46,554 nucleotides of DNA, taken from assembly GCA_016178625.1 (NCBI GenBank), contig JACOSX010000110.1, positions 1 through 46,554 on the forward strand, written 5' to 3'. The DNA is from Ignavibacteria bacterium. Its GTDB lineage: Bacteria > Bacteroidota > Ignavibacteria > UBA10030 > SZUA-254. Shown piece by piece: positions 1,901-46,151 of the stretch. Under the pieces are notes generated by a model. That model was not told the origin of the DNA and searched no databases. It saw nothing but the letters and a program-made list of their open reading frames with translations. The number at the start of each line of letters is the position of its first letter. Positions within the stretch are counted from its first letter, which is position 1. The position numbers and the translations under genes were made by a program.

Positions 1901-1916
1901 TATACGTACACTTCTT

Positions 1917-2828: not shown

Positions 2829-2883
2829 GAATCAATTCAAAATTAAGAAGTCACAATTCAAATAATGTCTCAACCATTGTTTT

Positions 2884-4269: not shown

Positions 4270-4350
4270 ATCCTTGACGCTACTTTATCTACCTTCTCCG
4301 ACGTCACACGTTTTCCCTTCTGAATGAAAGAGTGGTGTGTCAGGGAGATC

Positions 4351-4713: not shown

Positions 4714-4747
4714 GGCTCATCCTTTCATAGTAAGTGCTCTTGACCGT

Positions 4748-6363: not shown

Positions 6364-6364
6364 A

Positions 6365-7537: not shown

Positions 7538-7541
7538 GTCC

Positions 7542-8948: not shown

Positions 8949-8952
8949 TCTG

Positions 8953-10577: not shown

Positions 10578-11965
10578 GCAGCGTTTTTCTCCAAACGATC
10601 AACAAGGAACGTCACAACGTCTTCCATTTTCATTCCTCGGGATCCTTTCACAAGAACGATATCTCCGGCTGAGAGAAGTTCCGCCGCATATTCCGACAAA
10701 ATATTTTTTTGGTCGTAATGGATTTTCGTGCGTACATTCGCTCGCGTATAGATATGCCGTGCCATCTCGCCATACGTGAGCAAGAATTCAAACCCCATTG
10801 AACCGATTGCGTCGCCAATTCGCTCATGTTCCAGTTGTGAAGCATCACCAAGCTCGCGCATATCGGCGAGGATGACGATCTTTTTTCCTTTGCATTTCAT
10901 TGCCTGCAGAGCCTCAAGCGCAGAAAGCACAGAATCGGGATTCGCATTGTATGCATCGTTCACGATTGTTATATCACCGACTCTTACTACTTCCATCCGC
11001 TTGCCGACCGCGTTGAAGTTCTTTAGTGACTTTTGAATTTCTTTCGGTGGAACTTTAAACGTCAATCCGATTGCTGTGGCGGCGAGAGCATTTATCATTA
11101 CATGTTTTCCGGGGATTGAAAGCTGAATAGCAAATTTTTTTCCCTTCCCCGAGCTCACAGCAAATTCCGCACAGCCGTCTTCATGTACTCTCAAAAACTT
11201 ACCATGAATATCACTCGAACGCTTAGAGAAACTATAGGTCACTTTCTTCTGAACAGGTTTTGCCTGAGCGACAACCCGTTCATCGTCACGATTAATGAAT
11301 CCAACACCCGACTTACCTAACGCCGAGAACAATTCACCTTCTGCGCGAGCAACACCTTCAAGGTCGTGGAAGAATTGCAAATGTTCTCGTCCAATGTTGG
11401 TGATAATGCCGTGCGTCGGCTCAAGGATGTTACATAGGTACATGATTTCCCCAAAGTGGTTCGTCCCGATTTCTATGACAGCGACCTCATGCTTCGGTTT
11501 CAGATGGAACAGTGTCTGCGGCACACCAATATGATTATTCAGGTTGCCATGAGTGCTCAGGACAGTATACCGCGTGTTCAACACCGCTGTGATCATTTCT
11601 TTCGTTGTCGTCTTGCCGTTACTGCCGGCGACTGCCAGAACAGGAATACTGAACTTCTTCCTGTAGATATTTGCCAATCTGCCGAGTGTTTTTGTCGTGT
11701 CGTCGACCACGAGTACAGGCTTCGATTGCCAACGAGCGCTATCTGTACGAGCGTCAATCACAGCGCATGAAGCACCCTTCGCGAATGCTTGTTCGACAAA
11801 CTGATGACCATCAAAGTTCTCACCTCGTATAGCAATAAATACCTCGCCGCGTTTTACGCTGCGGGAATCAATAGAAACACCCGCAAACGTTTTCCTGCCT
11901 AATGTGTCGAGATGATAAGCAGCGGCGTTCTCAAGACACATCAAATCCTTGACAGTCAGGTTCAT
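10574..11965 (-). CDS. murF: UDP-N-acetylmuramoyl-tripeptide--D-alanyl-D-alanine ligase MurF
   Basis: Adds the D-Ala-D-Ala dipeptide to complete the UDP-MurNAc-pentapeptide. The 463 residues show SIDSRSVKRGEVFIAIRG (N-terminal MurE/MurF-type UDP-binding domain), the P-loop VAGSNGKTTTKEMI at about 112-125, LNNHIGVPQTLFHL and IGTNHFGEI typical of MurF, NIGREHLQFF, and the C-terminal VNDAYNANPDSVLSALEAL motif. It starts by an ATGA overlap with murE and ends by an ATGA overlap with the secreted-protein gene. Confidence 0.97.
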   Translation of the reverse strand: MNLTVKDLMCLENAAAYHLDTLGRKTFAGVSIDSRSVKRGEVFIAIRGENFDGHQFVEQAFAKGASCAVIDARTDSARWQSKPVLVVDDTTKTLGRLANIYRKKFSIPVLAVAGSNGKTTTKEMITAVLNTRYTVLSTHGNLNNHIGVPQTLFHLKPKHEVAVIEIGTNHFGEIMYLCNILEPTHGIITNIGREHLQFFHDLEGVARAEGELFSALGKSGVGFINRDDERVVAQAKPVQKKVTYSFSKRSSDIHGKFLRVHEDGCAEFAVSSGKGKKFAIQLSIPGKHVMINALAATAIGLTFKVPPKEIQKSLKNFNAVGKRMEVVRVGDITIVNDAYNANPDSVLSALEALQAMKCKGKKIVILADMRELGDASQLEHERIGDAIGSMGFEFLLTYGEMARHIYTRANVRTKIHYDQKNILSEYAAELLSAGDIVLVKGSRGMKMEDVVTFLVDRLEKNAA

Positions 11966-13518
11966 GCATGAGCGCCAAGATACTCTTCGACGACCTCGCG
12001 ATCACTAAAGTGAATCTTTCGGTCCCCGATCACCTGATAATCTTCATGCCCCTTGCCAGCAATGAGGACAACATCTCCGCCTTGAGCAAACTCAAGTGCC
12101 ATCCAGACAGCTTTTCTCCGATCAGCTTCACGATAAACCGTTGACCCCGGTTCGATTCCCGTCATCACTTCATTGATGATGGCTTCTGCGTCCTCGTGCC
12201 GAGGATTGTCAGAAGTGACGATGGTAATGTTACTGAGCATTGTAGCGACGCGCGCCATCTTCGGACGTTTGATGCGGTCTCGGTTTCCACCGCAGCCGAA
12301 GACCGTGATAATCCGCCCACGTTTACTCGAATCAAAAACATCGTGAACTGCCTTTAATGCCTTCTCCAGGGCATCAGGGGAGTGCGCGTAGTCAATGACA
12401 GCTGTCCACCCTTTCAGAGAGACGATTTGTTCAAACCGTCCCCGCACAGTCGTTGTTTTTCTGACTGCTTCTTGGAGAGTCGACTTAGGGATCCCAAGTG
12501 CAACTCCAGTACTAAACGCTGCGAGAATATTGCTTACGTTAAATCGTCCGATGAGAAACGACTCGATCGGCGTATGTTCGCCATTGTGAACAATTGTGAA
12601 CCGGGTACCTGTCATCGATAAGGAAATATCCGTTGCCTTGACATCAGCGTTCGAATATATTCCGTAGGAGATCGTCTGTGCCGATGTCAAACCGACAAGT
12701 TTTCTTCCCCAGTCGTCATCAATGTTAACAATTGCCCATGCATCGCGCGCGAGCACATTAAAAAGGATCTTTTTCGCGTCAAAATATTCATCCATTGTTC
12801 CATGATAATCAAGATGGTCCTGCGTCAGGTTCGTAAAGACCCCGGCTTTGAAAAGCATTCCGTCTACACGATGTTGATGCAGAGCATGGGAAGACACCTC
12901 CATCACCGCAGCTGCACAGCCATGCTCCACCATTCTCGCTAATAACTCATTAAGCTCAAGAGATTCTGGAGTTGTATGAGTTGCCTGAATAACCTCATCA
13001 CCAATCTGATACTCGATTGTTCCGATGAGACCCGTTTTTCTACCGTATGATTCCAGCATAGATTTCAACAAATGGGTCGTTGTCGTTTTGCCGTTCGTTC
13101 CCGTAACACCTACCATCGTCAGTGCGCGTGAGGGATGGTTGGTATAATTAGCAGACATTTGCGCAAGTGCGATTCGCGTATTCGGAACAACTACTTTCAC
13201 AACACCTGCGTGCATAAAATATGAATCCGGCATCGCACCATCATCTTCCACCACAACAATTTTTGCACCGTTGGAGACAGCATTGTTGATGAAACGGTGT
13301 CCATCCGCTTCGGTTCCGCGGATTGCCACAAAGAGATCGCCTCTCGTGACTTTCCGTGAGTCATACTGGATGCGGGGCACTTCAACGTCATGAGTGACAA
13401 CCATCTGTCCATACATGGTTTGGAACATCTTCGTCACCGTCACGCCATCCAATATATTTGATAAGCCCATGATGTTGATTTCGTTAGCAAGTTCATATTC
13501 TTCAACGACGCAACTCAT
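11962..13518 (-). CDS. murE: UDP-MurNAc-tripeptide synthetase MurE, DAP-adding type
   Basis: Adds the third stem-peptide residue. The 518 residues contain YDSRKVTRGDLFVAIRG near 52, the P-loop GVTGTNGKTTTTHLL at 137-151, MEVSSHAL, NLTQDHLDYHG, the FDAKK segment with the likely carbamylated lysine, and DYAHSPDALEKAL. The specificity motif DNPR at 437-440 is the signature for meso-diaminopimelate rather than lysine, so the cell wall is predicted to be the A1-gamma DAP type. About 15 residues precede the usual start; MGLSNILDG at residue 17 is an alternative. It overlaps murF by ATGA. Confidence 0.96.
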   Translation of the reverse strand: MSCVVEEYELANEINIMGLSNILDGVTVTKMFQTMYGQMVVTHDVEVPRIQYDSRKVTRGDLFVAIRGTEADGHRFINNAVSNGAKIVVVEDDGAMPDSYFMHAGVVKVVVPNTRIALAQMSANYTNHPSRALTMVGVTGTNGKTTTTHLLKSMLESYGRKTGLIGTIEYQIGDEVIQATHTTPESLELNELLARMVEHGCAAAVMEVSSHALHQHRVDGMLFKAGVFTNLTQDHLDYHGTMDEYFDAKKILFNVLARDAWAIVNIDDDWGRKLVGLTSAQTISYGIYSNADVKATDISLSMTGTRFTIVHNGEHTPIESFLIGRFNVSNILAAFSTGVALGIPKSTLQEAVRKTTTVRGRFEQIVSLKGWTAVIDYAHSPDALEKALKAVHDVFDSSKRGRIITVFGCGGNRDRIKRPKMARVATMLSNITIVTSDNPRHEDAEAIINEVMTGIEPGSTVYREADRRKAVWMALEFAQGGDVVLIAGKGHEDYQVIGDRKIHFSDREVVEEYLGAHA

Positions 13519-13563
13519 ACGATAACAGTTCTTACACGGCGGTGGATGCTTTCAACTCACGCA

Positions 13564-15612
13564 TCAGTTGATATTCAGTGCCACCGATGATCTCGGCTGG
13601 CAAATTAAGGTAATCTTCGTACCTGGTCTTGCAGGTTGTCCCGCCGGCGGTACTTGATTGATCACTGTGCCTGAGCCGTTGACAATCGGTTGGAACTTTC
13701 CGGTCATAAGAATTCCCACGGCGCGCCGTACGCTGTACCCTTTCACATCCGGGACGATACCCTTGGGATACCCGACGTTTCTTTCTTTCTCATCAACAGC
13801 TCTCTCTGTCTGTATTCTCTTCGATGATCTCACAGTGTTGCCACCGTTTGTTGTAACTGCACCCATTGTATCTTGGGGTACGAACATTTGTGAAGTATTC
13901 ATAAACCGTTCGGCAATAGCGCGGAACACCGGTGCACTCACAGTTCCACCGTAATAACTGCTGCCGCGCGGATTATCCATCATGACGAGGCAAACGAGTT
14001 GCGGATCATCAACCGGTAAGAACCCCACAAATGATGCTGTATAACTTCCCGTCTCATAGTGACCCTCAATATATTTTCTTGACGTCCCCGTTTTGCCCGC
14101 AACCTTGACCCCAGCGATCTGCGCAGGCACTCCAGTTCCATGCACAACTACACCCTCAAAAAAATTCTTGAGTATCCGCGCGGTCGCTGGCGAGATCACT
14201 CTCCGAATCTGTTGCGATTTCCCTTCACGCACAATTTGTCCTGACCCATCAGTTTCACGCTTGAAGAGATAGGGCTGCATTAAAATTCCATCATTCGCCA
14301 CGACAGCGTATGCAGCTACTATTTGTATGGGGGTTACCCCGACTTCATATCCATAGGCGATGGTGTTTAATGTTGTTCCAGACCATTCGATCGGCTTTTT
14401 GAGAACTCCTTTCGCCTCGCCGGGGAAATCTATGTTCGTTGCAATACCGAACCCATAATCGCGCGCCATCTTGTAGAACCGCTCTGGTCCAATCAGATCA
14501 CTTACTTTTGCCATGACGATATTACTCGAAACTTCCATCGCTTCCTGGAATGTCAACCATCCCTCCGGATGTGTATCGGCAATCGTCCGTTGCTTTCCGT
14601 ACGAGACAGGAACAACATACTTTCCATTCTCGGCAAAGAACCGTTTCTCAGGGACAACGATTCCATGATCGAGAGCAGCGGAGGCAGTGACAATCTTGAA
14701 CACAGAGCCTGGCTCAAAGACATCAGTTACTGCGCGAAGCTTTTGATCTTGCAGATCGAACGTGCCAAATTTGTTCGGATCAACATTTGGATATTGTGCC
14801 ATCGTCAGGACTTCGCCTGTCTTTGGCTGGATGACCACCACAAGTCCGTGGTCCGCTTTGTTTTGCTCGATCCCTTTCCTAAGCTCTTTCTCCGCAATTG
14901 CCTGTAGCCCCATGTCGATCGTCAGGATGATATTATGGCCGTTCACAGGCTCAACGCGCGGATAATCAACAGAGGGTCGTGCACGCCCCAAACCATCTCT
15001 TTGGAAAATTACGTAGCCATCGATTCCCCTGAGCTCTTTATCGTACGATAGCTCAATACCCGCCAGTCCGTTATTATCAACATCGGTACAGCCCACCAGT
15101 TGCCCGGCGACTTGGTCGTGGAAATACAATCGTTTTGGTTCATAGCGGACCACGATACCCTCAAGATCCTTCGTGTTGATCTTCTTGAGATAACGAACAT
15201 CAACCTGCCTTTCCAGCCATACAAACCGCGAATCAGATCGAAGTTTTTCGAGGTAATAACTCTTTGGCTTTCCGAACAGGTTCGAAAACTTACTTGCAAT
15301 CGCCCGCGCATCAGCAACAGCAAGCTGAGGATCGGCGGCAAATGACACGTATATTGAGTTAGTCGCGATGACATTTCCACTCCGATCATAGAGTGTTCCT
15401 CTTGCCGCGGGCAGAACTATTTTCGACTGATATTGCTTCTGTGCAATTTCACGATATTTTGGGAACTCGATGATCTGGATTTGAACAAGACGAAGCCCGA
15501 CAACGGCAAAAAACATGATCATCGAGAACTGCAGGATCCGCAGTCGAACCCGCAGTGTTTTCCCGAAAGTATTCTCAACAGAAGGTGATAAATGTTGTTC
15601 GTGTTCCGTCAC
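13564..15612 (-). CDS. ftsI: Septal penicillin-binding protein FtsI with C-terminal PASTA domain
   Basis: Monofunctional class B transpeptidase that cross-links septal peptidoglycan with FtsW. The 682 residues comprise a membrane anchor (about 27-45), a dimerisation/pedestal domain with PAARGTLYDRSGNVIATN, and the transpeptidase domain with active-site SVFK at 303-306, SSN at 362-364 and KTGTS at 507-511. A PASTA domain follows at about 619-672 (VPDVKGYSVRRAVG and VINQVPPAGQPARPGTKI). PASTA-bearing FtsI occurs in several phyla including the Chlorobi/Ignavibacteria line. Translation appears to start at a GTG at 15612, since no in-frame ATG lies upstream. It sits between ftsL and murE. Confidence 0.96.
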   Translation of the reverse strand: MTEHEQHLSPSVENTFGKTLRVRLRILQFSMIMFFAVVGLRLVQIQIIEFPKYREIAQKQYQSKIVLPAARGTLYDRSGNVIATNSIYVSFAADPQLAVADARAIASKFSNLFGKPKSYYLEKLRSDSRFVWLERQVDVRYLKKINTKDLEGIVVRYEPKRLYFHDQVAGQLVGCTDVDNNGLAGIELSYDKELRGIDGYVIFQRDGLGRARPSVDYPRVEPVNGHNIILTIDMGLQAIAEKELRKGIEQNKADHGLVVVIQPKTGEVLTMAQYPNVDPNKFGTFDLQDQKLRAVTDVFEPGSVFKIVTASAALDHGIVVPEKRFFAENGKYVVPVSYGKQRTIADTHPEGWLTFQEAMEVSSNIVMAKVSDLIGPERFYKMARDYGFGIATNIDFPGEAKGVLKKPIEWSGTTLNTIAYGYEVGVTPIQIVAAYAVVANDGILMQPYLFKRETDGSGQIVREGKSQQIRRVISPATARILKNFFEGVVVHGTGVPAQIAGVKVAGKTGTSRKYIEGHYETGSYTASFVGFLPVDDPQLVCLVMMDNPRGSSYYGGTVSAPVFRAIAERFMNTSQMFVPQDTMGAVTTNGGNTVRSSKRIQTERAVDEKERNVGYPKGIVPDVKGYSVRRAVGILMTGKFQPIVNGSGTVINQVPPAGQPARPGTKITLICQPRSSVALNIN

Positions 15613-15648
15613 AGTATATGAACCCGATGGGGATCTCCTTGATGTCTC

Positions 15649-16083
15649 TTATCGTAGATTTGGTGTGATGCGTTCGGCGTCGACCTCAAACCAAATCGGC
15701 TGTTCTTTTGGATAGACAAGACCCAACTGTCCGGTGGCAATCGTGGCAATACGCTCGAGATTGGATTTCTTATTGATCTCTGCGCGAAGGAATTCGTTTG
15801 TATTGAGCATCTTCTGATATTGATTCTGTAGATCATTGATTTCTACAACCAAGCGGTTCACGGCAATCTTGTTCCATACATAGAACACAATGAGGAGTGA
15901 AATTGTGAACAGTACGGCAATGATATTGAATGGCGATCGTTTTCGTCTTTTCACCCTCTTATTACCACGAGGCACAAATTCTCCATTGTGACTCACGGTT
16001 TCACCATTATATACGTAACGACGCTCGGTAAGCTCTGGGCTAGACGTTCCTTGTTCAGCCAATGTTGATGAATTCTTTGTCAT
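15649..16083 (-). CDS. ftsL: FtsL-like divisome protein
   Basis: A 144-residue bitopic protein: a hydrophilic N-terminus ending in a very basic stretch (NKRVKRRKRS), one membrane helix at about 52-70, then a predicted coiled coil at about 75-110 (RLVVEINDLQNQYQKMLNTN). The segment RIATIATGQLGLVYP resembles the conserved end of FtsL, where a leucine-zipper-like coil is followed by A.eLGmv.P. FtsL forms the FtsQLB complex that activates FtsW-FtsI. Primary sequence similarity within this family is low, so the call depends on topology plus position between rsmH and ftsI. Its ATG overlaps the rsmH stop (ATGA). Confidence 0.87.
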   Translation of the reverse strand: MTKNSSTLAEQGTSSPELTERRYVYNGETVSHNGEFVPRGNKRVKRRKRSPFNIIAVLFTISLLIVFYVWNKIAVNRLVVEINDLQNQYQKMLNTNEFLRAEINKKSNLERIATIATGQLGLVYPKEQPIWFEVDAERITPNLR

Positions 16084-17015
16084 GGGTATACGCGTTCCGC
16101 CACTCGTAATTTCGCACTTCGGGCACGCGGGTTATTCTTACATTCATCAAGCTGTGGCCCAACGGGCTTCTTCGTCAAGATAGCAACCTTTGGGTGCTTC
16201 GGTTGATCAGCAGAAAATTTGTTGCCTGATGGAATTGACGTTTTTGACTCCTCTCGAAAACGGTTCTTGACAATACGGTCTTCAAGGGAATGATACGAAA
16301 TCACCACAAGTCTTCCACCGGGATAAAGGATGTTGAGAATCTGATCCAATGCTTGTGCAAGATTCCCAAGTTCATTGTTCACTTCGATCCGGATGGCCTG
16401 AAAAACTCTCGCTAGCGATTTTTGCAAGAATTTCTCTCCGACTACCGACCGAATTACTTCTACCAAATCCTGAGTTGTATTAATCGCTCGCTGGCTCCGA
16501 ACAATATTTATTTCCCTGGCGATTCGGCGCGAATGCTTCTCTTCGCCATAGTTCCAGAGAATTTCCGCCAAATGTTGCTCTGTGTAATTGTTGACAACCT
16601 TCCATGCGTCTAGTAGCTGTTCTCGATTCATCCGCATGTCGAGTCGGCTCTCTGTTTGAAAACTGAAGCCCCGTTGTTTCTCGTCTATCTGGTGTGATGA
16701 TATGCCCAAATCCAAGAGGGCCCCACTGATGCGATCGACCCCAATGGTATGCAGGGCAGTTTCAATATGTGAAACGTTTTCGTGGAGATAGGTCACCTGA
16801 TCTCCAAATTGTCCTAGCCGCAATCGGGCGGATGCGATTGCCTCACGATCTTGATCAAACCCGATCAACCTTCCACCTGGAGAAAGCCGCATCAAGATTG
16901 CTTCAGCATGTCCGCCGCCTCCAAGTGTTCCATCCACGTAAATTCCATCAGGTACAGTTGGCAGGTAACGAAGAACCTCCTCAACCAATACCGGCGTGTG
17001 ATACTCGGGTTCCAT
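16080..17015 (-). CDS. rsmH: 16S rRNA (cytosine-1402-N4)-methyltransferase RsmH (MraW)
   Basis: SAM-dependent enzyme that methylates N4 of C1402 in the 16S rRNA P site. The 311 residues begin EYHTPVLVEEVLRYLP, followed by the SAM loop DGTLGGGGHAEAIL, GFDQDREAI, LLDLGISSHQIDEKQRGFSF, DMRMN, and the C-terminal VVISYHSLEDRIVKNRF block, all hallmarks of RsmH. It follows mraZ after about 60 nt and overlaps ftsL by 4 nt. Confidence 0.97.
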   Translation of the reverse strand: MEPEYHTPVLVEEVLRYLPTVPDGIYVDGTLGGGGHAEAILMRLSPGGRLIGFDQDREAIASARLRLGQFGDQVTYLHENVSHIETALHTIGVDRISGALLDLGISSHQIDEKQRGFSFQTESRLDMRMNREQLLDAWKVVNNYTEQHLAEILWNYGEEKHSRRIAREINIVRSQRAINTTQDLVEVIRSVVGEKFLQKSLARVFQAIRIEVNNELGNLAQALDQILNILYPGGRLVVISYHSLEDRIVKNRFREESKTSIPSGNKFSADQPKHPKVAILTKKPVGPQLDECKNNPRARSAKLRVAERVYP

Positions 17016-21889: not shown

Positions 21890-24800
21890 TCATTCACGAT
21901 CTTTATGAACGAAGATTTCCTCTAATCTCTTTTTCGCGTCGTGCAACCGCTCATTTGTGCCGTCACCCTGGCGTTGAGTGAACCTCAATTTCAACGCGCT
22001 GCCTTCTTGTTGTAGCCGGACATCCTTCTTCCCATCAACCGCGACCTTTTTCATGATCTGCTGGAATGGCGCGCCTGCATCATCATGCTCACCGTAGAAC
22101 TGCTTGTTCGATTGATCAGGCAGCGTAATCGAGAGCGCGTTTCCTTTAAGCTCCACCTTCTGAAATCCGGCCCTCGCCGCAAGGAGTCGCAGCTCGACAA
22201 GCTGAAACAAATTTTCCACTTCCCCCGGATATTCGCCGAAACGGTCCTGCAACTCCGCACGCATGCTGCCGAGTTCATCTTCCGTCGTAGCCTTATAGAG
22301 CTTACGATACACATCGAGCCGCTCAGAGTCGGATTCGATGTAGAAGTCCGGGATGAGAGCCTCAATATCTGAGTCGATGACAGCCTCGGTGGATGGGCGA
22401 TGTACGATGTGCGATGTAGGTTGCTGAGATTGAAAGACGTCGCTGAATTCCTCCTGCCTCAGCTCGGCCACTGCTTCCTGGACGATCCGCTCGTACATCT
22501 CGAAGCCCATCTCCATGATGAACCCAGATTGCTCGCCGCCCAGAAGATTGCCCGCCCCGCGAATCTCAAGATCGCGCATGGCAAGGTTGAAGCCAGAGCC
22601 AAGCTCCGTGAATTCTTCGATAGCTTGCAGACGGCGCAGTGTAGCCTTTGGCATTACACTGAGAGGCGGCACAAGGAGATAGGCATACGCTTGCATATTT
22701 GACCTGCCGACACGGCCGCGCAACTGGTATAGTTCTGCCAATCCAAATCGGTCTGCGCGGTTGATAATGATCGTGTTGACGTTCGGGATGTCGAGGCCTG
22801 ACTCAATGATTTTCGTACACACAAGGACATCATATTGTTTCTCGAGAAATCCCAGCATCGTTTTTTCAAGCTGATGTCCCGTCATCTGTCCGTGGGCAAC
22901 GTGCACCTTCGCTTCAGGCACGTTCGCTTTTACCTGATCGGCAATCGCATCGATATTGTTGACGCGGTCGTGCACGAAGTAGACCTGACCGCCGCGGTGG
23001 AGTTCCCTCATGATCGCCTCGCGAATGACTTGCCATTGCAGGCGGTGAAGGCTATGATCGGCAGCGATTATTTCCGTTAGGATCGGCAGCCGGTTGCGCG
23101 GCGGTGTTGCGATGAGGGAGAGATCACGAGCACCGATCAGCGAGAAGTGCAACGTCCGCGGGATGGGCGTTGCAGTTAATGTCAGCGTATCCACGGTTGC
23201 TTTCAATTGCCGCAATTTTTCCTTCGCGGCAACACCGAAACGATGCTCTTCGTCGATGACCAACAGACCGAGGTCTTTCACGATAATGTCTTTCGAGAGG
23301 AGTCGGTGGGTTCCGATGATGATATCGATGGATCCTTTCGCAAGATCATCAACAATTTGTTTTTGTTCCTTCATCGATTTAAAGCGCGTAATGTTCTCGA
23401 CCCGCGTTGTGTATCGAGAGAGACGATCCTGGAAGGTGTTGTAATGTTGGATCGCAAGGATGGTTGTCGGCACGAGCAGCGCGACTTGCTTTCCGTCCAT
23501 CACAGCTTTGAAGGCAGCGCGGAGTGCAACCTCCGTCTTCCCGAATCCGACATCACCACAGATGAGCCGGTCCATCGGGGCGGGACTCTCCATGTCGTGT
23601 TTTACTTCGAGCGTTGCAGTCGCCTGGTCGATCGTATCTTCGTACATGAACGAGGCTTCAAGCTCTTTCTGCCAGTGCGTATCCGGAGAGAATGTGAAGC
23701 CCTTATCGTGTTTCCTTCTCGCGTACAACGCGATGATATCTCGCGCGATATCTTTGATACGACGTTTAGCTTTTGCCTTCGTGCGCTCCCAATCTGCTGC
23801 ACCGAGTTTGTTGAGCTTCGGGACATGTCCCTCTTGTGAAGAGTACTTCTGCACGCGGTTGATGAAGTTGAGATTCACATACAACACATCATTCTCAAGG
23901 AAAACGAGTTTCATCACCTCCTGCTCGACCCCACCGACCTTAATCTTGGAGAGACCTGTGAAGGTTCCGATTCCATGATCGATGTGAACAACATAATCGC
24001 CGCGTTTGAGTTGCTGCAACTCCTTTTGTGAGAAACCCTTGAAGCGGCGTCGTTTCAGCATTCCTCGGCGTTTCAGTCTGCCGAAGATTTGATGTTCAGT
24101 GAAGACGGCAAGGCGCGCCGGTTGGAACATAAATCCCAAATGGACGGATTCGCTGATGATTTCGTACCTGATGGCAGATGGTATGTGACTTGAGGTTTCT
24201 GATTGTGGTTCACCGACGCGAGTCTTCTCTTCTTCCACAATCTTCGACTTCGAATCTCCTACCTCTTCCGGACTGGTTATGACGTCCTCAATCAATTCCC
24301 TTAATCGAATTGCTCCATCCTTCGTATCACACGTGAGATAGATTTTGTATTCCTCACCGGAGAGTTTCCGGAGTGTTTCGACAAGCACATTGATACTGCC
24401 GTTGAATGCCGGCTGTGAGAGAGAATTAAAATTGGTGCTGCTGTTTACGTTCTTAATTTTGGACGTGCCGGTTCCAAAACTGGAACTGATGATCATGAGA
24501 AATTGTGCCCCACGGCGATATGTCTCGTCATACGTGAAGGGGGTTGATGTCGTTACCATCGCGAGTTCATCGATCTCACGCTTTATCATTGCCGGTTCAT
24601 CGAGGATGACGATTGCATCGTTCTGGAGATAGTCGAGCAGAGACGCAGTACGTACATGATGCTCTCGTTCTCCATTCTGATCGTGCTCATCGGAACCAGT
24701 GGATTCTTTGATGAGAGAGGGAATAATACTCGCCGACTCCAATTCGCGGATCGAGCGTTGAGAGAGTACATCAAATTCTCGGATGGATTCGACCGTGTCG

Positions 24801-25405
24801 CCCCAGAACTCAAGCCGAAGAGGGTTTTCTCCAACATACGGGAACACATCGACAATGCCGCCGCGGACGGCAATATCCCCATAGCTTTCGACGAATTCTT
24901 TTCTGATGAAGCCAAGCTCTGTCAGATGGTCAATCAATGATTGAAAATTGTGCTCTGCGTTTGCCCTCAGCTCGATGACGGTTTGCGCGAACTGCCGAGG
25001 AGGCGGTACCATCTCAACAATCGAATGAGGAGATGCGATCACGACGCACTTCATTCCTGAGGAGAGCGCTTTGAGCGTTTCGACTTGCGCAATGGTTGAT
25101 GTCATATCCAATCCTCCTTCGGCGGACGTCTGATGCATAGGTCTCGCACCAAATAAGCGCACACTGGCTTCCCCCATCAGAAGGGCACAATCATCGCGAA
25201 GCTTTTCAGCTTTGTCTTCATCCGAGGCAATCAATAACACTTGAGCCTGTCGTTTGTCAAACACTTTTGCCACGACAAATGCGAGCAGTGAGCCAGCGAC
25301 ACCGATGAGTGCAAGTGGGGCATCCGGTGAGAGACATCGTAACTGCTCGAAAAGTTCAGTAAATGTATCGGAACGATATATTTCGTCTTGTAACGCGTTT
25401 ATCAT
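21890..25405 (-). CDS. mfd: Transcription-repair coupling factor Mfd
   Basis: ATP-driven translocase that removes RNA polymerase stalled at DNA damage and recruits UvrA. From the ATG at 25405 it has 1171 residues: a UvrB-like N-terminal module (YGDIAVRGGIVDVFPY), a linker, the RNA polymerase-interacting domain (about 469-531, VVHIDHGIGTFTGLSKIKVG), the RecG-like motor with Walker A GDVGFGKTE near 626, DEEH near 718, TLTATPIPRT and GRVGRSNMQAYAYLLVP, and the C-terminal UvrA-binding-like domain. The stretch between D3 and the RID contains a polar insertion of about 30 residues. A longer reading to 25612 would run into arfB on the other strand and encodes an unlikely N-terminus. Confidence 0.97.
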   Translation of the reverse strand: MINALQDEIYRSDTFTELFEQLRCLSPDAPLALIGVAGSLLAFVVAKVFDKRQAQVLLIASDEDKAEKLRDDCALLMGEASVRLFGARPMHQTSAEGGLDMTSTIAQVETLKALSSGMKCVVIASPHSIVEMVPPPRQFAQTVIELRANAEHNFQSLIDHLTELGFIRKEFVESYGDIAVRGGIVDVFPYVGENPLRLEFWGDTVESIREFDVLSQRSIRELESASIIPSLIKESTGSDEHDQNGEREHHVRTASLLDYLQNDAIVILDEPAMIKREIDELAMVTTSTPFTYDETYRRGAQFLMIISSSFGTGTSKIKNVNSSTNFNSLSQPAFNGSINVLVETLRKLSGEEYKIYLTCDTKDGAIRLRELIEDVITSPEEVGDSKSKIVEEEKTRVGEPQSETSSHIPSAIRYEIISESVHLGFMFQPARLAVFTEHQIFGRLKRRGMLKRRRFKGFSQKELQQLKRGDYVVHIDHGIGTFTGLSKIKVGGVEQEVMKLVFLENDVLYVNLNFINRVQKYSSQEGHVPKLNKLGAADWERTKAKAKRRIKDIARDIIALYARRKHDKGFTFSPDTHWQKELEASFMYEDTIDQATATLEVKHDMESPAPMDRLICGDVGFGKTEVALRAAFKAVMDGKQVALLVPTTILAIQHYNTFQDRLSRYTTRVENITRFKSMKEQKQIVDDLAKGSIDIIIGTHRLLSKDIIVKDLGLLVIDEEHRFGVAAKEKLRQLKATVDTLTLTATPIPRTLHFSLIGARDLSLIATPPRNRLPILTEIIAADHSLHRLQWQVIREAIMRELHRGGQVYFVHDRVNNIDAIADQVKANVPEAKVHVAHGQMTGHQLEKTMLGFLEKQYDVLVCTKIIESGLDIPNVNTIIINRADRFGLAELYQLRGRVGRSNMQAYAYLLVPPLSVMPKATLRRLQAIEEFTELGSGFNLAMRDLEIRGAGNLLGGEQSGFIMEMGFEMYERIVQEAVAELRQEEFSDVFQSQQPTSHIVHRPSTEAVIDSDIEALIPDFYIESDSERLDVYRKLYKATTEDELGSMRAELQDRFGEYPGEVENLFQLVELRLLAARAGFQKVELKGNALSITLPDQSNKQFYGEHDDAGAPFQQIMKKVAVDGKKDVRLQQEGSALKLRFTQRQGDGTNERLHDAKKRLEEIFVHKDRE

Positions 25406-25579
25406 GTTCTCTTTCAAATCATTCTTTACCCTTGCCGGCAACATAAATCTCCGGGCAGAAAACACCCCACCCCTACTCCCGCGACTGAGTCGGGAAGTAA
25501 GGGACACCGAAAAGTACCAAAAGGAGAACGCAATTGCAATTGTCGACAGCGGCACGATGAAGGAAGTCGCCGAATTTCG

Positions 25580-25585
25580 TATCTT
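25580..25585 (+). promoter_or_regulatory. Possible -10/-7 element upstream of arfB
   Basis: TATCTT followed by TA, eight bases before the arfB ATG, matching the first seven positions of the Bacteroidota -7 form TAnnTTTG. The upstream element is weak (ATGAAG 17 bases before). If used, transcription would start at or next to the ATG, giving a nearly leaderless message. Confidence 0.35.
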
Positions 25586-25593
25586 TACATTCG

Positions 25594-26019
25594 ATGGGCG
25601 ACGTAATAACAATAAACGAGTCTTTGGCTATCCCAAGATCCGAACTGACGTTCAAGTTCGCACGCAGTGGGGGACCAGGTGGTCAGAACGTGAACAAGGT
25701 GGAGACACGTGTTGAACTGTTGTTTGATGTTCAGAACTCACCGAGCCTCAACGACGAGCAGCGCGAGAACATTAAGGGACATCTAAAATCGCGGATCGAC
25801 ACGGAGGGAATGCTGCATGTGGTCGCCCAGACTTCCCGCAGCCAGTGGAAGAACCGCGAGGAAGCAGTCGAGCGTCTTACCGATCTCTTGCGCCGCGCGT
25901 TGAAGCCGCGAAAAAAACGGATTAAGACGAAGACCACGAGGGCGGCAAAGGAGAACCGGTTGGAAGGAAAGAAACATCGCAGTCAAATCAAACAAATGAG
26001 AAGATTTGAAAGAGAGTAG
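25594..26019 (+). CDS. arfB: Alternative ribosome-rescue factor ArfB (peptidyl-tRNA hydrolase, YaeJ/ICT1 type)
   Basis: Codon-independent peptidyl-tRNA hydrolase that frees ribosomes stalled without a stop codon. The 141 residues show the release-factor catalytic loop FARSGGPGGQNVNKVETRV with the GGQ triplet near residue 30. The highly basic C-terminal tail (about 105-141, rich in Lys and Arg) enters the empty mRNA channel. Length matches E. coli ArfB (140). No Shine-Dalgarno is visible; a TATCTT element lies eight bases upstream. It is divergent from mfd and converges on thyX, with a shared hairpin after its stop. Confidence 0.95.
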   Translation: MGDVITINESLAIPRSELTFKFARSGGPGGQNVNKVETRVELLFDVQNSPSLNDEQRENIKGHLKSRIDTEGMLHVVAQTSRSQWKNREEAVERLTDLLRRALKPRKKRIKTKTTRAAKENRLEGKKHRSQIKQMRRFERE

Positions 26020-26021
26020 AT

Positions 26022-26057
26022 AACCTTGCGGAGGTTTCAAACCTTCGCAAGGTTTTT
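26022..26057 (+). terminator. Rho-independent terminator of arfB, overlapping the thyX 3' end
   Basis: A 15-bp stem (AACCTTGCGGAGGTT paired with 26040-26054, one G-T pair) with a 3-nt loop TCA and a run of five T starting inside the stem at 26053. It begins three bases after the arfB stop. The loop is exactly the reverse complement of the thyX TGA stop codon, and the 3' arm encodes the last ThyX residues. The minus-strand side lacks a T-tract, so termination is predicted mainly for arfB. Confidence 0.8.
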
Positions 26058-26897
26058 CAACTTTTCCAAAAACTCATCCGCCTCGCGTCCCTTCAATCCT
26101 TTACACTCGAGACTTTCCTTCGTGATTTTCTGGACATCGAGCTGTTCAGTGATTACCTTTAGCTCAAGTCGCGAAAATCTTTCACCCTTCAACACATAAT
26201 CCTCGAACGCTTCCCATGCCATCGGCGCGACTTTCTTCGTGATCTCAGCCATGGCTTCACCATACACCTGGATCTCGTACTGCGCGTGTGCATCCATCCG
26301 TAACCGTAAGAAATGGAAAAGGTTGTGCAAATCGATCTTCCAGTACCACTCGGTGTAGAGTGAGAGCGGAAGGTTAATGCGCGCGAGTTCGCGTGCGATG
26401 TCATCCTCAAGCATCTTTTGATATTCGCCGTACAATTGAGTGTGTGATGAGGTCAAAATATCCAACACTTTCCGGCGCAACTCTGGCGGGACGTCTTCTT
26501 TACGCCTGCCTTGCTTGTTCCGGAGACTCTGATAATGGATCGCTTCATGCTCGGGGACGTAGAACTCGTCCTTCATAATTGAATACCGTCCGGAGTACTC
26601 ATTCACGTTTGCCGTACGATGCCTGATCCATTGCCGCGCGACGAAGATGGGAAGCTTCACGTGGAATTTTAGCTCTACCATTTCGAAGGGCGTGGTATGC
26701 ATGTGGCGCATCAGGTACCGGATGAGTCCGCGATCTTCGTTGACTGTTTTTGTTCCCTTACCATAGGAAACGCGTGCAGCCTGTACAATCGATTCATCTC
26801 CCCCCATGTAATCGATGAGCCTGACAAAGCCGGCATTGAGACACTTGAATTCCTTGTCTAAAATTTCTTCCGCTTGAGGATTAGTTACGTGAGCCAT
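26037..26897 (-). CDS. thyX: Flavin-dependent thymidylate synthase ThyX
   Basis: Makes dTMP from dUMP using methylene-tetrahydrofolate and reduced FAD, without dihydrofolate as product. The 286 residues carry the ThyX signature RHRTANVNEYSGR (R92-H-R, then S102 and R104), which binds FAD and dUMP, preceded by MRHMHTTPFE and followed by SLYTEWYWKIDLHNLFHFL and RMDAHAQYEIQ. The C-terminal extension of about 50 residues after the core is longer than in Thermotoga ThyX. No ThyA is seen in the window. The stop codon lies in the loop of the arfB terminator. Confidence 0.97.
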   Translation of the reverse strand: MAHVTNPQAEEILDKEFKCLNAGFVRLIDYMGGDESIVQAARVSYGKGTKTVNEDRGLIRYLMRHMHTTPFEMVELKFHVKLPIFVARQWIRHRTANVNEYSGRYSIMKDEFYVPEHEAIHYQSLRNKQGRRKEDVPPELRRKVLDILTSSHTQLYGEYQKMLEDDIARELARINLPLSLYTEWYWKIDLHNLFHFLRLRMDAHAQYEIQVYGEAMAEITKKVAPMAWEAFEDYVLKGERFSRLELKVITEQLDVQKITKESLECKGLKGREADEFLEKLKNLAKV

Positions 26898-27051: not shown

Positions 27052-27080
27052 TTGTATTTCGCCTCCACTTTCGTTATCTT
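27052..27080 (+). promoter_or_regulatory. Promoter of the oxidised-guanine repair operon
   Basis: TTGTAT (27052-27057), 17-nt spacer, TATCTT (27075-27080) followed by TT; equivalently TTG-N20-TATCTTTT. The -10 ends six bases before the ATG at 27087, so the predicted start site falls on or beside the start codon, implying a leaderless or nearly leaderless transcript. Confidence 0.5.
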
Positions 27081-27086
27081 TTCTCC

Positions 27087-27497
27087 ATGATTCAAGTCGC
27101 AGTCGGTATCATTATGAAGAACGGAGAGGTTCTTCTTTGCCAACGCCATCAGCAAGCTCGCTACGGCTTGAAGTGGGAATTCCCCGGCGGAAAAGTAGAA
27201 ACGGAAGAAGAGACTAATGCCTGTTTACGTCGCGAATTGCATGAAGAACTTGCGATCGATGCAGTTGTGGGCGACTTGTACCATCAACAGCATGCTCTCT
27301 ACCCGGACAGCGGCACGTTCGATGTTTTCTATTATATCGTGCCTGCATTCACCGGTGAACTTGTCAACCATGTTTTTGAGTCATGTGAGTGGGTGCCGAT
27401 TCAGAACCTTGATCGCTACGATATCCTGGAAGGAAACAGAGATGTCGTTCAAAAGCTCATGAATGAGTATGCGAAAATTCCATCGCAGAACGATTAA
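27087..27497 (+). CDS. mutT: MutT-like Nudix hydrolase ((deoxy)nucleotide triphosphate pyrophosphohydrolase)
   Basis: A 136-residue Nudix protein of the MutT/8-oxo-dGTPase type, which cleanses oxidised dNTPs to monophosphates. The N-terminus MIQVAVGIIMKNGEVLLCQR and YGLKWEFPGGKVE are MutT-like. The Nudix box spans residues 34-57 with the REL-HEE core; the usual Gly before the final hydrophobic residue is Ala. I chose the ATG at 27087 because the fold begins there, rather than an in-frame start at 27042 inside the promoter. Its end overlaps the MutY-like gene by 35 nt. Close relatives include CTP/NUDG-type pyrophosphatases, so the exact substrate is not certain. Confidence 0.85.
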   Translation: MIQVAVGIIMKNGEVLLCQRHQQARYGLKWEFPGGKVETEEETNACLRRELHEELAIDAVVGDLYHQQHALYPDSGTFDVFYYIVPAFTGELVNHVFESCEWVPIQNLDRYDILEGNRDVVQKLMNEYAKIPSQND

Positions 27498-28410
27498 GGC
27501 TCTTCACCGAAACGTTCTCCGCTGGTATCGGAAACACCAACGGCAGTTGTTCTGGCGGTCGACCCGTGATCCGTACGAGATTCTTGTTTCCGAGATTATG
27601 CTGCAGCAAACCCAGGCGAGCCGCGTGCAGGAGAAGCTTCCACAGTTCCTCGATCGATTTCCAACACTTCGGACACTTGCGCACGCATCAAGGGCAGATG
27701 TCATTCGAGCATGGCGGGGAATGGGATACAATAATAGAGCTGTAAGACTTCGCGAACTTGCTAGAAAAGTAATTGAACGGCATGAAGGTCAACTGCCGTG
27801 CCGTATCGAAGAGCTCCTCCGTCTTCCGGGTATCGGGAAGTATACAGCACATGCGTTAACTTGTTTCGCATACGGGAGACGCATGCCGGTCGTGGACGTC
27901 AATATCCGACGCGTGCTCTCACGAGTGTTGTGGAAGACGAAGAGCACCGCCGAGTTGAGAACAGACGATGAGATATGGTCGGCGGCGGAGCGCATCCTTC
28001 CGAAGGATTCTTATTCTTGGAACCAGGCGTTAATGGATCTCGGCGCGACGGTGTGTACTGCCCGGCGACCAAAGTGCGAAGAGTGTCCGATCGCATCGAT
28101 CTGTTCCTCTCGTCATTTGCACAAGCTTGGAGTGATGAACGGCAGGCAAGCACATCAAGCAAAAAAAATGGAGCCGAGGTATAATGGGATTCCTCATAGA
28201 ATCTGGCGTGGGCGCATCGTTGAAGCTCTGAGGAATATGAGCAGTGAGAGTTCCTTTTCACTCGTTCGTCTTGGGCACATCATCAAGAGCGATTTCAGCA
28301 AGCGCGAACTTCCGTGGTTGAGCAGATTGATCGATGGCTTAGTGCGAGATGGTATCGCACACACATCCAAACATCGCAGTACTATTAGCGTCATGTTGGC
28401 GGGTGAATGA
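27463..28410 (+). CDS. mutY: MutY-like adenine (mismatch) DNA glycosylase
   Basis: Base-excision glycosylase of the HhH-GPD superfamily, expected to remove A opposite 8-oxoG. The 315 residues show SEIMLQQTQ with the catalytic Glu44, the helix-hairpin-helix LPGIGKYTAHAL at 121-132, catalytic Asp145 in VVDVNIRRVLSR, and an iron-sulfur loop of Cys 198, 205, 208 and 214 (CX6CX2CX5C). The usual Nudix-like 8-oxoG-reading C-terminal domain is missing. In its place residues about 247-315 look like a winged helix (RIWRGRIVEALRNM to SRLIDGLVRDGI), as in some short actinobacterial MutY forms. Tyr127 and the VDVN variant also recall archaeal MIG thymine glycosylases, so mismatch preference is open. It overlaps the ogg2-like gene by ATGA. 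Confidence 0.88.
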   Translation: MSMRKFHRRTIKALHRNVLRWYRKHQRQLFWRSTRDPYEILVSEIMLQQTQASRVQEKLPQFLDRFPTLRTLAHASRADVIRAWRGMGYNNRAVRLRELARKVIERHEGQLPCRIEELLRLPGIGKYTAHALTCFAYGRRMPVVDVNIRRVLSRVLWKTKSTAELRTDDEIWSAAERILPKDSYSWNQALMDLGATVCTARRPKCEECPIASICSSRHLHKLGVMNGRQAHQAKKMEPRYNGIPHRIWRGRIVEALRNMSSESSFSLVRLGHIIKSDFSKRELPWLSRLIDGLVRDGIAHTSKHRSTISVMLAGE

Positions 28411-29045
28411 AGAAGGTTATTCAGAAATTATCACTCGACGAACTCCGCACATTTCATCGCGAGCGGAAGAATGCAATCCGTCATCGACTGCGAGAGTTTT
28501 CAAGAATTCCGCAAACCGAATACTTCTATGAACTCGTTTACTGTCTCCTCACACCGCAATCAAGCGCTGTCAATGCTGAGAAAGCGGTGAAGCTGCTGAA
28601 AGAAACCGACTTTTTTCACGAGCCAGTCGATCCGGAGCCATTGCTTCACCAGAAAGAGTTCTATATCCGCTTCCATAAGACGAAAGCAAAACATCTCCTC
28701 CACACGCGTGAACAGTTTCCGCTGATCGCAGACCATCTCTCAAACGGCAGTTCAAGTGCCGAGCTTCGCGAATGGCTGGTACAGAACGTGAGAGGTTTGG
28801 GATGGAAGGAGGCATCGCATTTCCTCCGTAATGTCGGACACCGCAACCTCGCTATTCTTGACCGCCACATCTTGAAGAATCTTGTCCGTGTTGGTGTTCT
28901 CCGGCATCTGCCGAAAACGCTCACCGCAAAGCGTTACAAAATTATTGAGCAAAAATTTCATACATTTGCACGGCAGATCGGCATTCCCATGGATGAACTT
29001 GATCTTTTATTCTGGAGTATGGAAACCGGAGAGATACTAAAGTGA
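28407..29045 (+). CDS. N-glycosylase/DNA lyase, Ogg2 type (8-oxoguanine)
   Basis: Bifunctional glycosylase/AP lyase of the OGG2 family, which excises 8-oxoguanine from DNA. The 212 residues carry the family core VRGLGWKEASHFLRNVG with the Schiff-base Lys134, followed by LAILDRHILKNLV with catalytic Asp152. The N-terminal ELVYCLLTPQSSAVNAEKAV is also typical. OGG2 is best known from archaea and occurs in scattered bacteria. Its ATG overlaps the mutY stop (ATGA), so all three oxidised-guanine enzymes are made from one message. There is no clear terminator after the stop. Confidence 0.92.
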   Translation: MKKVIQKLSLDELRTFHRERKNAIRHRLREFSRIPQTEYFYELVYCLLTPQSSAVNAEKAVKLLKETDFFHEPVDPEPLLHQKEFYIRFHKTKAKHLLHTREQFPLIADHLSNGSSSAELREWLVQNVRGLGWKEASHFLRNVGHRNLAILDRHILKNLVRVGVLRHLPKTLTAKRYKIIEQKFHTFARQIGIPMDELDLLFWSMETGEILK

Positions 29046-34116: not shown

Positions 34117-35982
34117 TCACTCCTGCACTACCAGCACAGGTATCGATAGCCGATGCCTGACCTCCGAAATCGATGCACCAAAGAAAATATCTTTGATGCC
34201 ACGGTGGCGATGCCCGCCCATGACAAGCAAGTCGATTTTTGTTTCTTGTGCAAGCTTTACAATCTGTTCAGGCACATTTCCGAAACCGAGTGTCGGATGG
34301 ACTTCAACCCCTGATGCTCTCAACTGCTGAGCGATTGTTTCCAGATGCTCGACATCGCTCCGCGCCTCATTGTCGTACGCGTCTTTCCCATACAACTGAC
34401 CGCTCACACCTTCAACGATGTGAAAGAGGTACATCGATGCACCGTGCTGCGTTGCAAGTGTCCGGGCATGAGAAAGAACTTTAGCATCCATTACTCCATA
34501 ATCTAACGCTACACCAATCTTGGAATATTCCTGTGTCTTAATCTCGATCGGGATGGGAATCGGTGGCGCGACCTTCTTTCGTCGCCACGACTTTGGTATC
34601 GAAACGTACAGGAGCAATATACCGCATCCAACAGCAATCGGAACGACAGTGAGCCACAGCCAGATTGCTCCACTGCCAGCGCCTGCAATCCAATCCGCCA
34701 GCGTTGAAGTTACCAGCTTGGCATTCAAACCAACGATGATCGTTGCAGCAATCCATGCAAGGATCTGAACCCAGAGCTTGTTGCTGAACTCTCCCATCCG
34801 TGTTCGTTCACTTGTGAATTGAATAAGCGGAATGACCGCAAACGGTAGTTGTAAACTGAGAATGACTTGACTGAGTATGAGCAATCCATACGATCCCCCT
34901 TCTCCCTGACTTGCTATCACGATAATCGCGGGGACGATTGCAATCGATCTCGTTATGAGCCGACGGAGAACCGGACGAATCTTGAACTGCAAGAAACCTT
35001 CCATCACAATTTGTCCGGCAAGTGTGCCCGTGAGCGTTGAGCTTTGTCCGGCAGAAAGGAGAGCGATCGCGAAGAGTGTGCTGGCAAGTGTCGTCCCTAA
35101 TAATGGCGTGAGCAGTTGATGCGCCTGTTGGATCTCCGTGACAACTACCCCATTCCTGAAGAAGACTGCCGCAGAAACAATAAGGATAGCGCTATTCACA
35201 AAGAAGGCAGCGTTGAGGGCAATGCCGGTATCAACAAGATTCCACTTGCACGCCTGGCGTTTCCCTTCGTCTGACTGGTCAACATCCCGTGTCTGCACGA
35301 GCGCAGAGTGGAGGTATAGATTATGTGGCATGACGGTCGCGCCGAGAATTCCGATCGCAACGTAGAGACTTTCCCGTGTCAGGTGAGGGACGAAACCCGT
35401 TCCAACTTCTCGCCACATCGGTTGTGAGAGAAGGACCTCGATACCGAAACAGATGCCGATTGTGGATACGAGCATGAGGATGAAGGCTTCCATCCTTCTG
35501 ATGCCGAAATGCTGGATCACCAGGAAAATCATCGTATCAAAGCCGGTGATAATGACGCCGTAGAGCAGCGGCACTTTGAACAGCAAGTTGAGTCCGATCG
35601 CTGTGCCGAGAACTTCGGCAAGATCGCAGGCGGCGATGGCAATTTCGCATAAGACCCAGAGTGTGAGCGCGATTGGTTTCGGATAATGTTCGCGGCAGGC
35701 TTGTGCGAGGTCTCTGCCTGTAACAATACCAAGCCTCGCAGAGAGGGTCTGCAGCAATACAGCCATCAGGTTCGACATCAACAAGACCCAGATGAGCTGG
35801 TACCCGAAGCGCGCACCGCCCTCGAGGTCAGTTGCCCAATTGCCAGGATCCATGTAACCTACACTTACGAGATATGCTGGGCCAGCAAACGCAAGCATGC
35901 GCTTGATCATGCCGGCGCTTTTTGGAATTGCAACCGTCCGGTGAACTTCGGATAGCGAGACCGTGGATTCTTTGATTGTCAT
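34117..35982 (-). CDS. mntH: NRAMP divalent metal transporter fused to a universal stress protein domain
   Basis: A 621-residue fusion. Residues 1-462 are an NRAMP (MntH-like) proton-coupled Mn/Fe importer with the metal-site motifs MDPGNWATD (DPGN at 45-48) and ATVMPHNLYLHS (about 215-226), plus SAGQSSTLTGTLAGQ. Residues about 487-620 form a cytosolic UspA domain (SKIGVALDYGVMDAKVL to DLLVMGGHRHRGIKD and LSIPVLVVQE). Its ATP loop GGHRHRG...GAS departs from the canonical G-2X-G-9X-G(S/T) spacing, so nucleotide binding is uncertain. The Usp domain may gate the transporter. The gene overlaps the mntR-like regulator by ATGA and so falls under the same operator. Confidence 0.94.
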   Translation of the reverse strand: MTIKESTVSLSEVHRTVAIPKSAGMIKRMLAFAGPAYLVSVGYMDPGNWATDLEGGARFGYQLIWVLLMSNLMAVLLQTLSARLGIVTGRDLAQACREHYPKPIALTLWVLCEIAIAACDLAEVLGTAIGLNLLFKVPLLYGVIITGFDTMIFLVIQHFGIRRMEAFILMLVSTIGICFGIEVLLSQPMWREVGTGFVPHLTRESLYVAIGILGATVMPHNLYLHSALVQTRDVDQSDEGKRQACKWNLVDTGIALNAAFFVNSAILIVSAAVFFRNGVVVTEIQQAHQLLTPLLGTTLASTLFAIALLSAGQSSTLTGTLAGQIVMEGFLQFKIRPVLRRLITRSIAIVPAIIVIASQGEGGSYGLLILSQVILSLQLPFAVIPLIQFTSERTRMGEFSNKLWVQILAWIAATIIVGLNAKLVTSTLADWIAGAGSGAIWLWLTVVPIAVGCGILLLYVSIPKSWRRKKVAPPIPIPIEIKTQEYSKIGVALDYGVMDAKVLSHARTLATQHGASMYLFHIVEGVSGQLYGKDAYDNEARSDVEHLETIAQQLRASGVEVHPTLGFGNVPEQIVKLAQETKIDLLVMGGHRHRGIKDIFFGASISEVRHRLSIPVLVVQE

Positions 35983-36632
35983 ACGACGCGGACGAAAATA
36001 GATTTCGCGATGCGCTGACTGATGAACTGCTCCTTTGGTCCGACCTTCACAATCATTGAACCATCAAACTTCATTTTCTCTTTCACAGTTAAGTTTTTAT
36101 TCAAGCCCAAGCCGAGGGTCGCAGCGAGTTGAAGCACACCCTGATCATCGTCGACACGAATGATCTTCACCCGGTCGCCGACTTCAAACTCTGACAATGG
36201 ACTATAGGCTGTTCCATCAAACTCGCCGTTCATGGTTGGAATGGGGTCACCATGCGGATCGACCTTCGGATAGCCAAGCGCTTTATCCAGCCGACGCTCC
36301 ATCTCCTGTGAGGTAACGTGTTCGAGCCGCTCTGCCTCGTCGTGGATCTCATCCCACCGATAACCGAGAAACTTCACCAGGAACATCTCCCACAGCCGGT
36401 GCCGGCGAATCATCTGAACCGCCAATCTCTTGCCCGATGCTGTCAGCGACACACCTTTATAAGGCGTGTGGTGTACAAGTCTTTTGGCAGCGAGTTTTTT
36501 GATCATGCCCGTCACCGACCCGTCGCCGATCTTGAGATGTTTCGCAAGCTCGGAGGTGGCAACACCCTTGCCGTTGTGCTGGAGTTTATAGATTCCTTTG
36601 AGATAATCCTCTGTTGATTGGTTTTTCGCCAT
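35979..36632 (-). CDS. mntR: DtxR/MntR-family metal-dependent repressor
   Basis: A 217-residue metal-sensing repressor: N-terminal winged helix (STEDYLKGIYKL, GDGSVTGMIKKLAAKRLVHH), dimerisation domain (HRLWEMFLVKFLGYRWDEIHDEAERLEH) and C-terminal SH3/FeoA-like domain (about 150-217). Putative ligands align with MntR as D9, H78, E101, E104 and H105. DtxR/IdeR iron sensors carry Cys at the position of E101 (HDEACRWEH), so Mn(II) sensing is favoured. I chose the ATG at 36632; a start at 36659 would lie inside the operator. It overlaps the NRAMP gene by 4 nt. Confidence 0.93.
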   Translation of the reverse strand: MAKNQSTEDYLKGIYKLQHNGKGVATSELAKHLKIGDGSVTGMIKKLAAKRLVHHTPYKGVSLTASGKRLAVQMIRRHRLWEMFLVKFLGYRWDEIHDEAERLEHVTSQEMERRLDKALGYPKVDPHGDPIPTMNGEFDGTAYSPLSEFEVGDRVKIIRVDDDQGVLQLAATLGLGLNKNLTVKEKMKFDGSMIVKVGPKEQFISQRIAKSIFVRVV

Positions 36633-36648
36633 AACACGAACAGTTGAT

Positions 36649-36671
36649 TTTAGGTGCACCTAAATTTAGGT
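36649..36671. promoter_or_regulatory. MntR/DtxR-type operator: two overlapping perfect palindromes
   Basis: TTTAGGTGCACCTAAA (36649-36664) is a perfect 16-bp palindrome, and ACCTAAATTTAGGT (36658-36671) a perfect 14-bp one that shares its middle half-site, giving three half-sites of TTTAGGT type. This matches the general TTAGG/CCTAA form of DtxR-family operators. It overlaps the -10 element and lies 17 nt upstream of the regulator's ATG, so metal-dependent autorepression of mntR-mntH is predicted. Confidence 0.85.
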
Positions 36672-45450: not shown

Positions 45451-46151
45451 TTATGATTCTTCTATGATTTTCTTCGCTCGCCGAAAAACGGTGTCAAACA
45501 TCTTCTCCGTCAGCTTGCCGGTAAACGTGTTCTGCTGACTCGGATGATACGACATGATGAGCATGTGTCGCTCAGGGACACCTCGTTCCCATGACCAAAC
45601 GTGGGACGCTTCGGCAACGACGTCATCTCCAATTCGCGGAACGCGTCGTACACAACGTTGGTGGCGAGATTGCCGAGTGCGACGATCACGCGAACGTTCT
45701 TCAACAACTTCAACTCCCTCAAAAGGAACGGACGACAGTTCAGCAGTTCCTTCGGCAGTAATTTGTTCGCAGGCGGCGCACACCGCGCCGATGCCGTGAT
45801 GTAGCAATCGGTGAGCTGCAAGCCGTCGCCGCGAGCAACGGACGTGGGCTGATTAGCAAAGCCAAACTTATGTAGTGCGCGATAAAGCCACTCGCCGCTG
45901 CGATCGCCGGTGAACATACGTCCCGTTCTGTTCGCGCCATGAGCGGCAGGCGCCAGCCCGACGACCAGCAGCCGCGCCTTCGGATCGCCGAAACCGGGCA
46001 CGGGTTTCCCCCAATACTTCTCTCCGCTAAAGCGGGGAGCTTTATGCTACGCAACCTCCTCGCGCCATGTAACGAGCCGCGGGCATAACCTGCAGACCGC
46101 AATGTTCCGATGGATTTGTTCAAGTAATGTGTTTGAGATTGTTTTCGGCAT
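45451..46151 (-). pseudogene. Family 5 uracil-DNA glycosylase (UdgB-like), interrupted
   Basis: The minus strand from the ATG at 46151 encodes a recognisable iron-sulfur uracil-DNA glycosylase: NIAVCRLCPRLVTWREEVA, then an in-frame TAG (46049-46047), then RFSGEKYWGKPVPGFGDP, motif A GLAPAAHGANRTGRMFTGD, YITASARCAPPANKLLP, IVALGNLA and PTFGHGNE. Near 45571-45581 the frame shifts (one base missing relative to an intact gene), and the last part, LIMSYHPSQQNTFTGKLTEK with motif B, is in the next frame. Both domains are otherwise well conserved, so inactivation is recent or the lesions are sequence errors. UdgB removes uracil and hypoxanthine from DNA. Confidence 0.85.

Follow-up and report, generated by a model that had tools for sequence, protein, structure and literature searches.

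A conserved mutT-mutY-ogg2 trio with a predicted winged-helix MutY in Ignavibacteria, probably an operon for oxidised-guanine defence

E. coli counters oxidised guanine with the GO system, encoded by mutT, mutY and mutM, in which MutY, like its Geobacillus and human counterparts, carries a MutT-like (Nudix) C-terminal domain with an FSH loop. The three genes lie far from one another and belong to different operons (PMC11078426), as the initial annotation of the locus described here had also held. Canonical MutY recognises 8-oxoguanine (8-oxoG) via the Nudix-like domain and the FSH loop (PMC10993402), whereas in archaeal MutYA and Eggerthella MutYX (PDB 8uuc) the same MutY catalytic domain is followed by a winged helix that replaces the Nudix domain, and MutYA is able to stand in for MutY in E. 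coli, according to a 2025 report (PMC12585504). The Ogg2 family of 8-oxoG glycosylases includes MjaOgg (3fhf/3knt), SsoOgg, TvoOgg and 3n0u; the described operon partner of Ogg2 in Thermoplasma volcanium is superoxide dismutase (PMC5069365), whereas the partners described here are MutT and MutY. The literature that we searched, which covers few subscription papers, yielded no paper on a mutT-mutY-ogg2 operon, and no description of MutYA or MutYX linked to MutT or Ogg2 was found in it.

Here, we describe such a trio in a 46,554-nucleotide stretch of DNA (hereafter the window) from an Ignavibacteria-related assembly. The three genes share their three predicted functions with the E. coli GO system, but they are gathered in one cluster rather than scattered; Ogg2 replaces Fpg, and the MutY lacks the Nudix-like domain (Table 1). 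The initial annotation had recognised them as overlapping MutT-like Nudix, MutY-like and Ogg2-type reading frames on the forward strand, an assignment that both the reading frames and family models confirm, and the two overlaps that it gave are present in the window. Divergence from relatives is in excess at third codon positions in all three genes, as expected of protein-coding genes. We propose that the trio is, with high probability, a single conserved operon serving the GO (oxidised guanine) pathway.

Table 1. Features of the mutT-mutY-ogg2 trio (window 27087-29045, + strand)
Feature	Position in window	Strand	Remarks
mutT-like Nudix hydrolase	27087..27497	+	136 aa; ORF open from ATG 27042
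MutY-type adenine glycosylase	27463..28410	+	315 aa; alternative ATG 27469
MutY C-terminal winged-helix domain (predicted)	28180..28407	+	residues ~240-315, replaces Nudix-like domain
Ogg2-type 8-oxoguanine DNA glycosylase/AP lyase	28407..29045	+	212 aa
mutT/mutY overlap	27463..27497	+	35 nt; 29 nt with ATG 27469
mutY/ogg2 ATGA stop/start overlap	28407..28410	+	4 nt

Two ATG codons, at 27042 and 27087, are candidate starts for the Nudix gene, which stops at 27497. Because the alignments of nearly all relatives begin at 27087, this ATG is the likely start; the earlier placement of the gene from 27052 found the right gene but put its start slightly off. For mutY, the sole later in-frame start candidate is a TTG within the conserved domain, and the overlap with mutT is therefore required. 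The trio lies downstream of a divergent thyX, and a saccharopine-dehydrogenase-like gene begins 111 nt beyond it. The initial annotation had placed the trio behind one promoter; a sigma-70 scan upstream of mutT found no site and the promoter and terminator scan returned sites at chance level, using a sigma-70 consensus that need not apply in this phylum. Just upstream, ThyX (26037-26897, - strand) is accompanied by the transcription-repair coupling protein Mfd (21890-25612, - strand), an arrangement that recurs within the family, at loci L144-L146, L148 and L039. Elsewhere in the window, translations indicate a division and cell-wall (dcw) cluster (1091-17015, - strand; FtsQ, MurB, MurC, MurG, FtsW, MurD, MraY, MurF, MurE, FtsI and RsmH) and an NRAMP-type metal transporter with a UspA-like tail adjoining a DtxR/MntR-like regulator (34117-36659, - strand), and a uracil-DNA-glycosylase-superfamily protein (45510-46001, - strand; PF03167, 3.8e-24) represents a further base-excision enzyme.

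Linkage was assessed in 60 relatives and 149 class genomes, 22 of them common to both sets, which together make 187 distinct genomes of the class. The three genes occur in the same order and on the same strand in 56 of the 187, spread over six families; for three of these genomes (G011, G012 and G014), part of the evidence consists of fragments at the ends of contigs. When only genomes in which all three genes were found at the search thresholds used are considered, the trio is linked in 56 of 73, so that the adjacency check proposed in the initial annotation came out in favour of conserved order. The remaining 17 comprise six with mutT and ogg2 linked and MutY elsewhere, one with mutT and mutY linked and Ogg2 on another contig, and ten without any linkage. 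The trio genes are unlinked in families f8, f11, f18 and f19 of the class. The annotation had also supposed fixed co-translation, and this does not hold: the five loci that show the mutY/ogg2 ATGA all belong to the window's own family, other families have gaps there, and the mutT/mutY overlap varies or vanishes among loci and gaps of up to ~300 nt occur.

An inherited synteny, in which an ancestral gene order is kept by descent without functional coupling, could produce much the same picture, and the downstream saccharopine-dehydrogenase-like, YajQ and amidase genes are indeed conserved in the window's order as well, as is the upstream thyX in part. We nevertheless regard this explanation as quite improbable, because in families f7 (L152 and L155) and f15 (L150 and L151) the trio persists, at ~37-55% identity, where the tested flanking genes of the window are absent within 3-4 kb, and because genomes that lost one gene still have the other two adjacent: mutT and ogg2 in 8 genomes without MutY, mutY and ogg2 in 7 genomes without MutT. 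The linkage thus looks selected rather than incidental, judging from these gene arrangements. The distances of the three proteins correlate over 37 loci (Mantel r 0.56-0.71, 0/2000 permutations), a pattern that fits shared descent. Among individual loci, we observed in-place losses in L144 (G008), L145 (G005) and L146 (G001): MutY is gone between mutT and ogg2 with the flanks kept, and in G001 MutT and MutY are both gone between thyX and ogg2. One genome carries a second mutT-mutY pair beside a complete trio (G006, C36:15-1233, - strand, and C175).

The first protein of the trio matches the Nudix family (PF00293, 8.8e-20) and carries the Nudix box GX5EX7REUXEEXGU as G35-K-V-E-T-E-E41 ... R49-E-L-H-E-E54-L-A-I, the last Gly being replaced by Ala. 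In the family alignment the catalytic Glu and Arg of the box (G35..E41..R49-E50-L51..E53-E54) are invariant; for each protein of the trio, invariance was judged on 28-34 aligned sequences. The closest solved structures are small MutT/NudG-like enzymes, with which the protein has the Nudix box and overall length in common; it differs in scoring below the curated MutT cut-off, and its substrate cannot be predicted with certainty. It could be that the enzyme is not MutT and acts on another nucleotide, for instance on modified CTP in the manner of NudG, leaving two GO arms only. The best PDB matches, 3ees (a probable pyrophosphohydrolase) followed by 2rrk (a CTP pyrophosphohydrolase), lean that way, as does a score of 91.7 bits with TIGR00586, a MutT model whose cut-off of 97.9 is narrowly missed, and the substrates of Nudix enzymes are in general hard to predict from sequence, those of the MutT type being promiscuous. 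On the other hand, Asn117, invariant in the family, aligns with an Asn that belongs to the 8-oxoG pocket of MutT, and the gene is constantly linked to two glycosylases of the 8-oxoG pathway. We therefore consider a substrate other than that of MutT unlikely and retain the MutT assignment.

The second protein has MutY as its best PDB matches and matches TIGR01084 (mutY, 1.2e-69), yet falls under the whole-protein cut-off of that model; it also matches PF00730 and the iron-sulphur family PF10576, and an HhH is present. Catalytic Glu44 and Asp145 and the [4Fe-4S] cysteines C198, C205, C208 and C214 are invariant in 34 aligned sequences. The initial annotation missed that this MutY is, on its predicted fold, a winged-helix enzyme without the Nudix-like domain that reads 8-oxoG. 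The tail of ~100 residues after the iron-sulphur motif is without any Nudix match: a Pfam scan found none after residue 214, where a canonical MutY requires its MutT-like C-terminal domain, and returned scattered single weak matches only over the C-terminal domain. The predicted model (24 sequences, pLDDT 90.9) shapes the tail as helix-helix-helix-strand-strand. Folded alone, the tail takes the same predicted fold, which resembles the winged helices of Z-alpha, ScpA and MarR/Rrf2 regulators (best Z 10.1), and 8uuc aligns with residues 9-312 of the MutY model (259 residues, rmsd 3.6, Z 23.2). Within the winged helix, P244 and R246 are invariant and R249 and G250 nearly so. Given the absent Nudix match and the predicted winged helix, we group the protein with MutYA and MutYX and not with canonical MutY, although it differs from the clusterless MutYX in retaining the four [4Fe-4S] cysteines. 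Near full-length matches come from Thermomicrobium (44% identity, full length), Natrinema, Nocardia and Tsukamurella, and in the three neighbourhoods inspected (Thermomicrobium, Natrinema and Tsukamurella) neither MutT nor Ogg2 lies beside MutY.

Since canonical MutY reads 8-oxoG by its Nudix-like domain and FSH loop, the MutY of the trio must do otherwise, and the winged helix is probably what gives it a preference for 8-oxoG. The only Nudix fold encoded in the trio is the separate MutT. It would be a long shot for this MutT, while catalytically competent, to do for MutY what the fused Nudix-like domain does in canonical MutY and help sense 8-oxoG in DNA, in a complex with MutY and perhaps Ogg2; if it did, the operon would keep as separate parts what other lineages fuse. 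We set aside the idea that the free MutT is a fission product of a Nudix-type MutY, noting that its Nudix box is intact and that winged-helix MutY occurs elsewhere without an adjoining MutT.

An enzyme that lacks the Nudix-like 8-oxoG-reading domain might have drifted to another mismatch, G:A or T:G, as in Mig. At the position of E. coli V45, where the V45A change weakens A/8-oxoG binding, the MutY of the window carries Ala52, the residue present in Mig, and its Tyr127 likewise agrees with Mig (PMC2714593). However, Val occupies position 52 in 27 of 34 relatives, which weakened a shift in specificity via Ala52 as a candidate, and Geobacillus MutY has the Tyr too. Gln188 (the E. coli Q182 position) and QQTQ are invariant in 34 sequences, MutY gives the best matches, and MutYA, which has a winged helix, can take over from MutY in E. 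coli according to the 2025 report (PMC12585504). Such drift therefore seems very unlikely, and we keep the reading of the protein as a MutY that would act on adenine opposite 8-oxoG.

The third protein is matched over its full length by Ogg2 structures, matches PF22175 (Ogg-HhH, 5.1e-50) and scores above the curated cut-off of NF002305 (N-glycosylase/DNA lyase). It shares with the Ogg2 family the catalytic Lys134 and Asp152 in the HhH-GPD motif and the C-terminal Lys212, all invariant in the family alignment. A search for Fapy_DNA_glyco found no match in the window's genome, which is 97% complete, while the same search found the domain in 8 of 14 control genomes. Fpg is present in 18 of 60 relatives, mostly of families f5 and f6, many of which also carry the trio. 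The use of Ogg2 instead of Fpg, put forward in the initial annotation, is thus borne out by gene content for the window's genome and most relatives, but it is not general, since many of those 18 have both Ogg2 and Fpg. The window's genome has no second MutY; Nth-like proteins are present. In a phylum-scale sample, Ogg2 was found in 50 of 395 genomes, only within the class, and no such MutT or MutY adjoins the Ogg2 loci of archaea, Fusobacteria and Kapabacteria, which lie outside the class. Near ogg2, some archaea carry an Nth-like gene (21-27% identity), and in Woesearchaeota and other archaea such a glycosylase gene lies just downstream of ogg2 (L065, L071, L073, L077, L081, L082 and L090). 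In G018 (C17:11194-11955) the Ogg2 match is in two pieces ~160 nt apart, possibly an insertion, a frameshift or an assembly error.

From these assignments we infer a division of labour in which MutT would hydrolyse 8-oxo-dGTP, keeping the oxidised nucleotide out of DNA, MutY would take out adenine mispaired with 8-oxoG, and Ogg2 would excise 8-oxoG opposite C, nick the abasic site and so substitute for the absent Fpg. Transcription as a single unit would benefit the cell by co-expression that keeps the three enzymes in step. An arrangement as one unit fits the way in which the enzymes depend on each other: where 8-oxoG was incorporated opposite A, MutY action would fix mutations unless MutT, by cleansing the nucleotide pool, holds that uptake low. 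Each part and the pathway are already known; what is new is the conserved arrangement with two non-textbook parts, not a new system.

Taken together, our findings suggest that a single genetic unit can unite all three arms of the defence against oxidised guanine, and that two components of this unit may be exchangeable, Ogg2 for Fpg and a winged-helix MutY for the Nudix-type MutY. Genomes with exactly one member lost make the dispensability of each arm testable, and a winged-helix MutY beside a free MutT offers a way to test how 8-oxoG might be read without a Nudix-like domain. The three genes also make up a cassette suitable for trial in laboratory strains of E. coli mutT mutY mutM.
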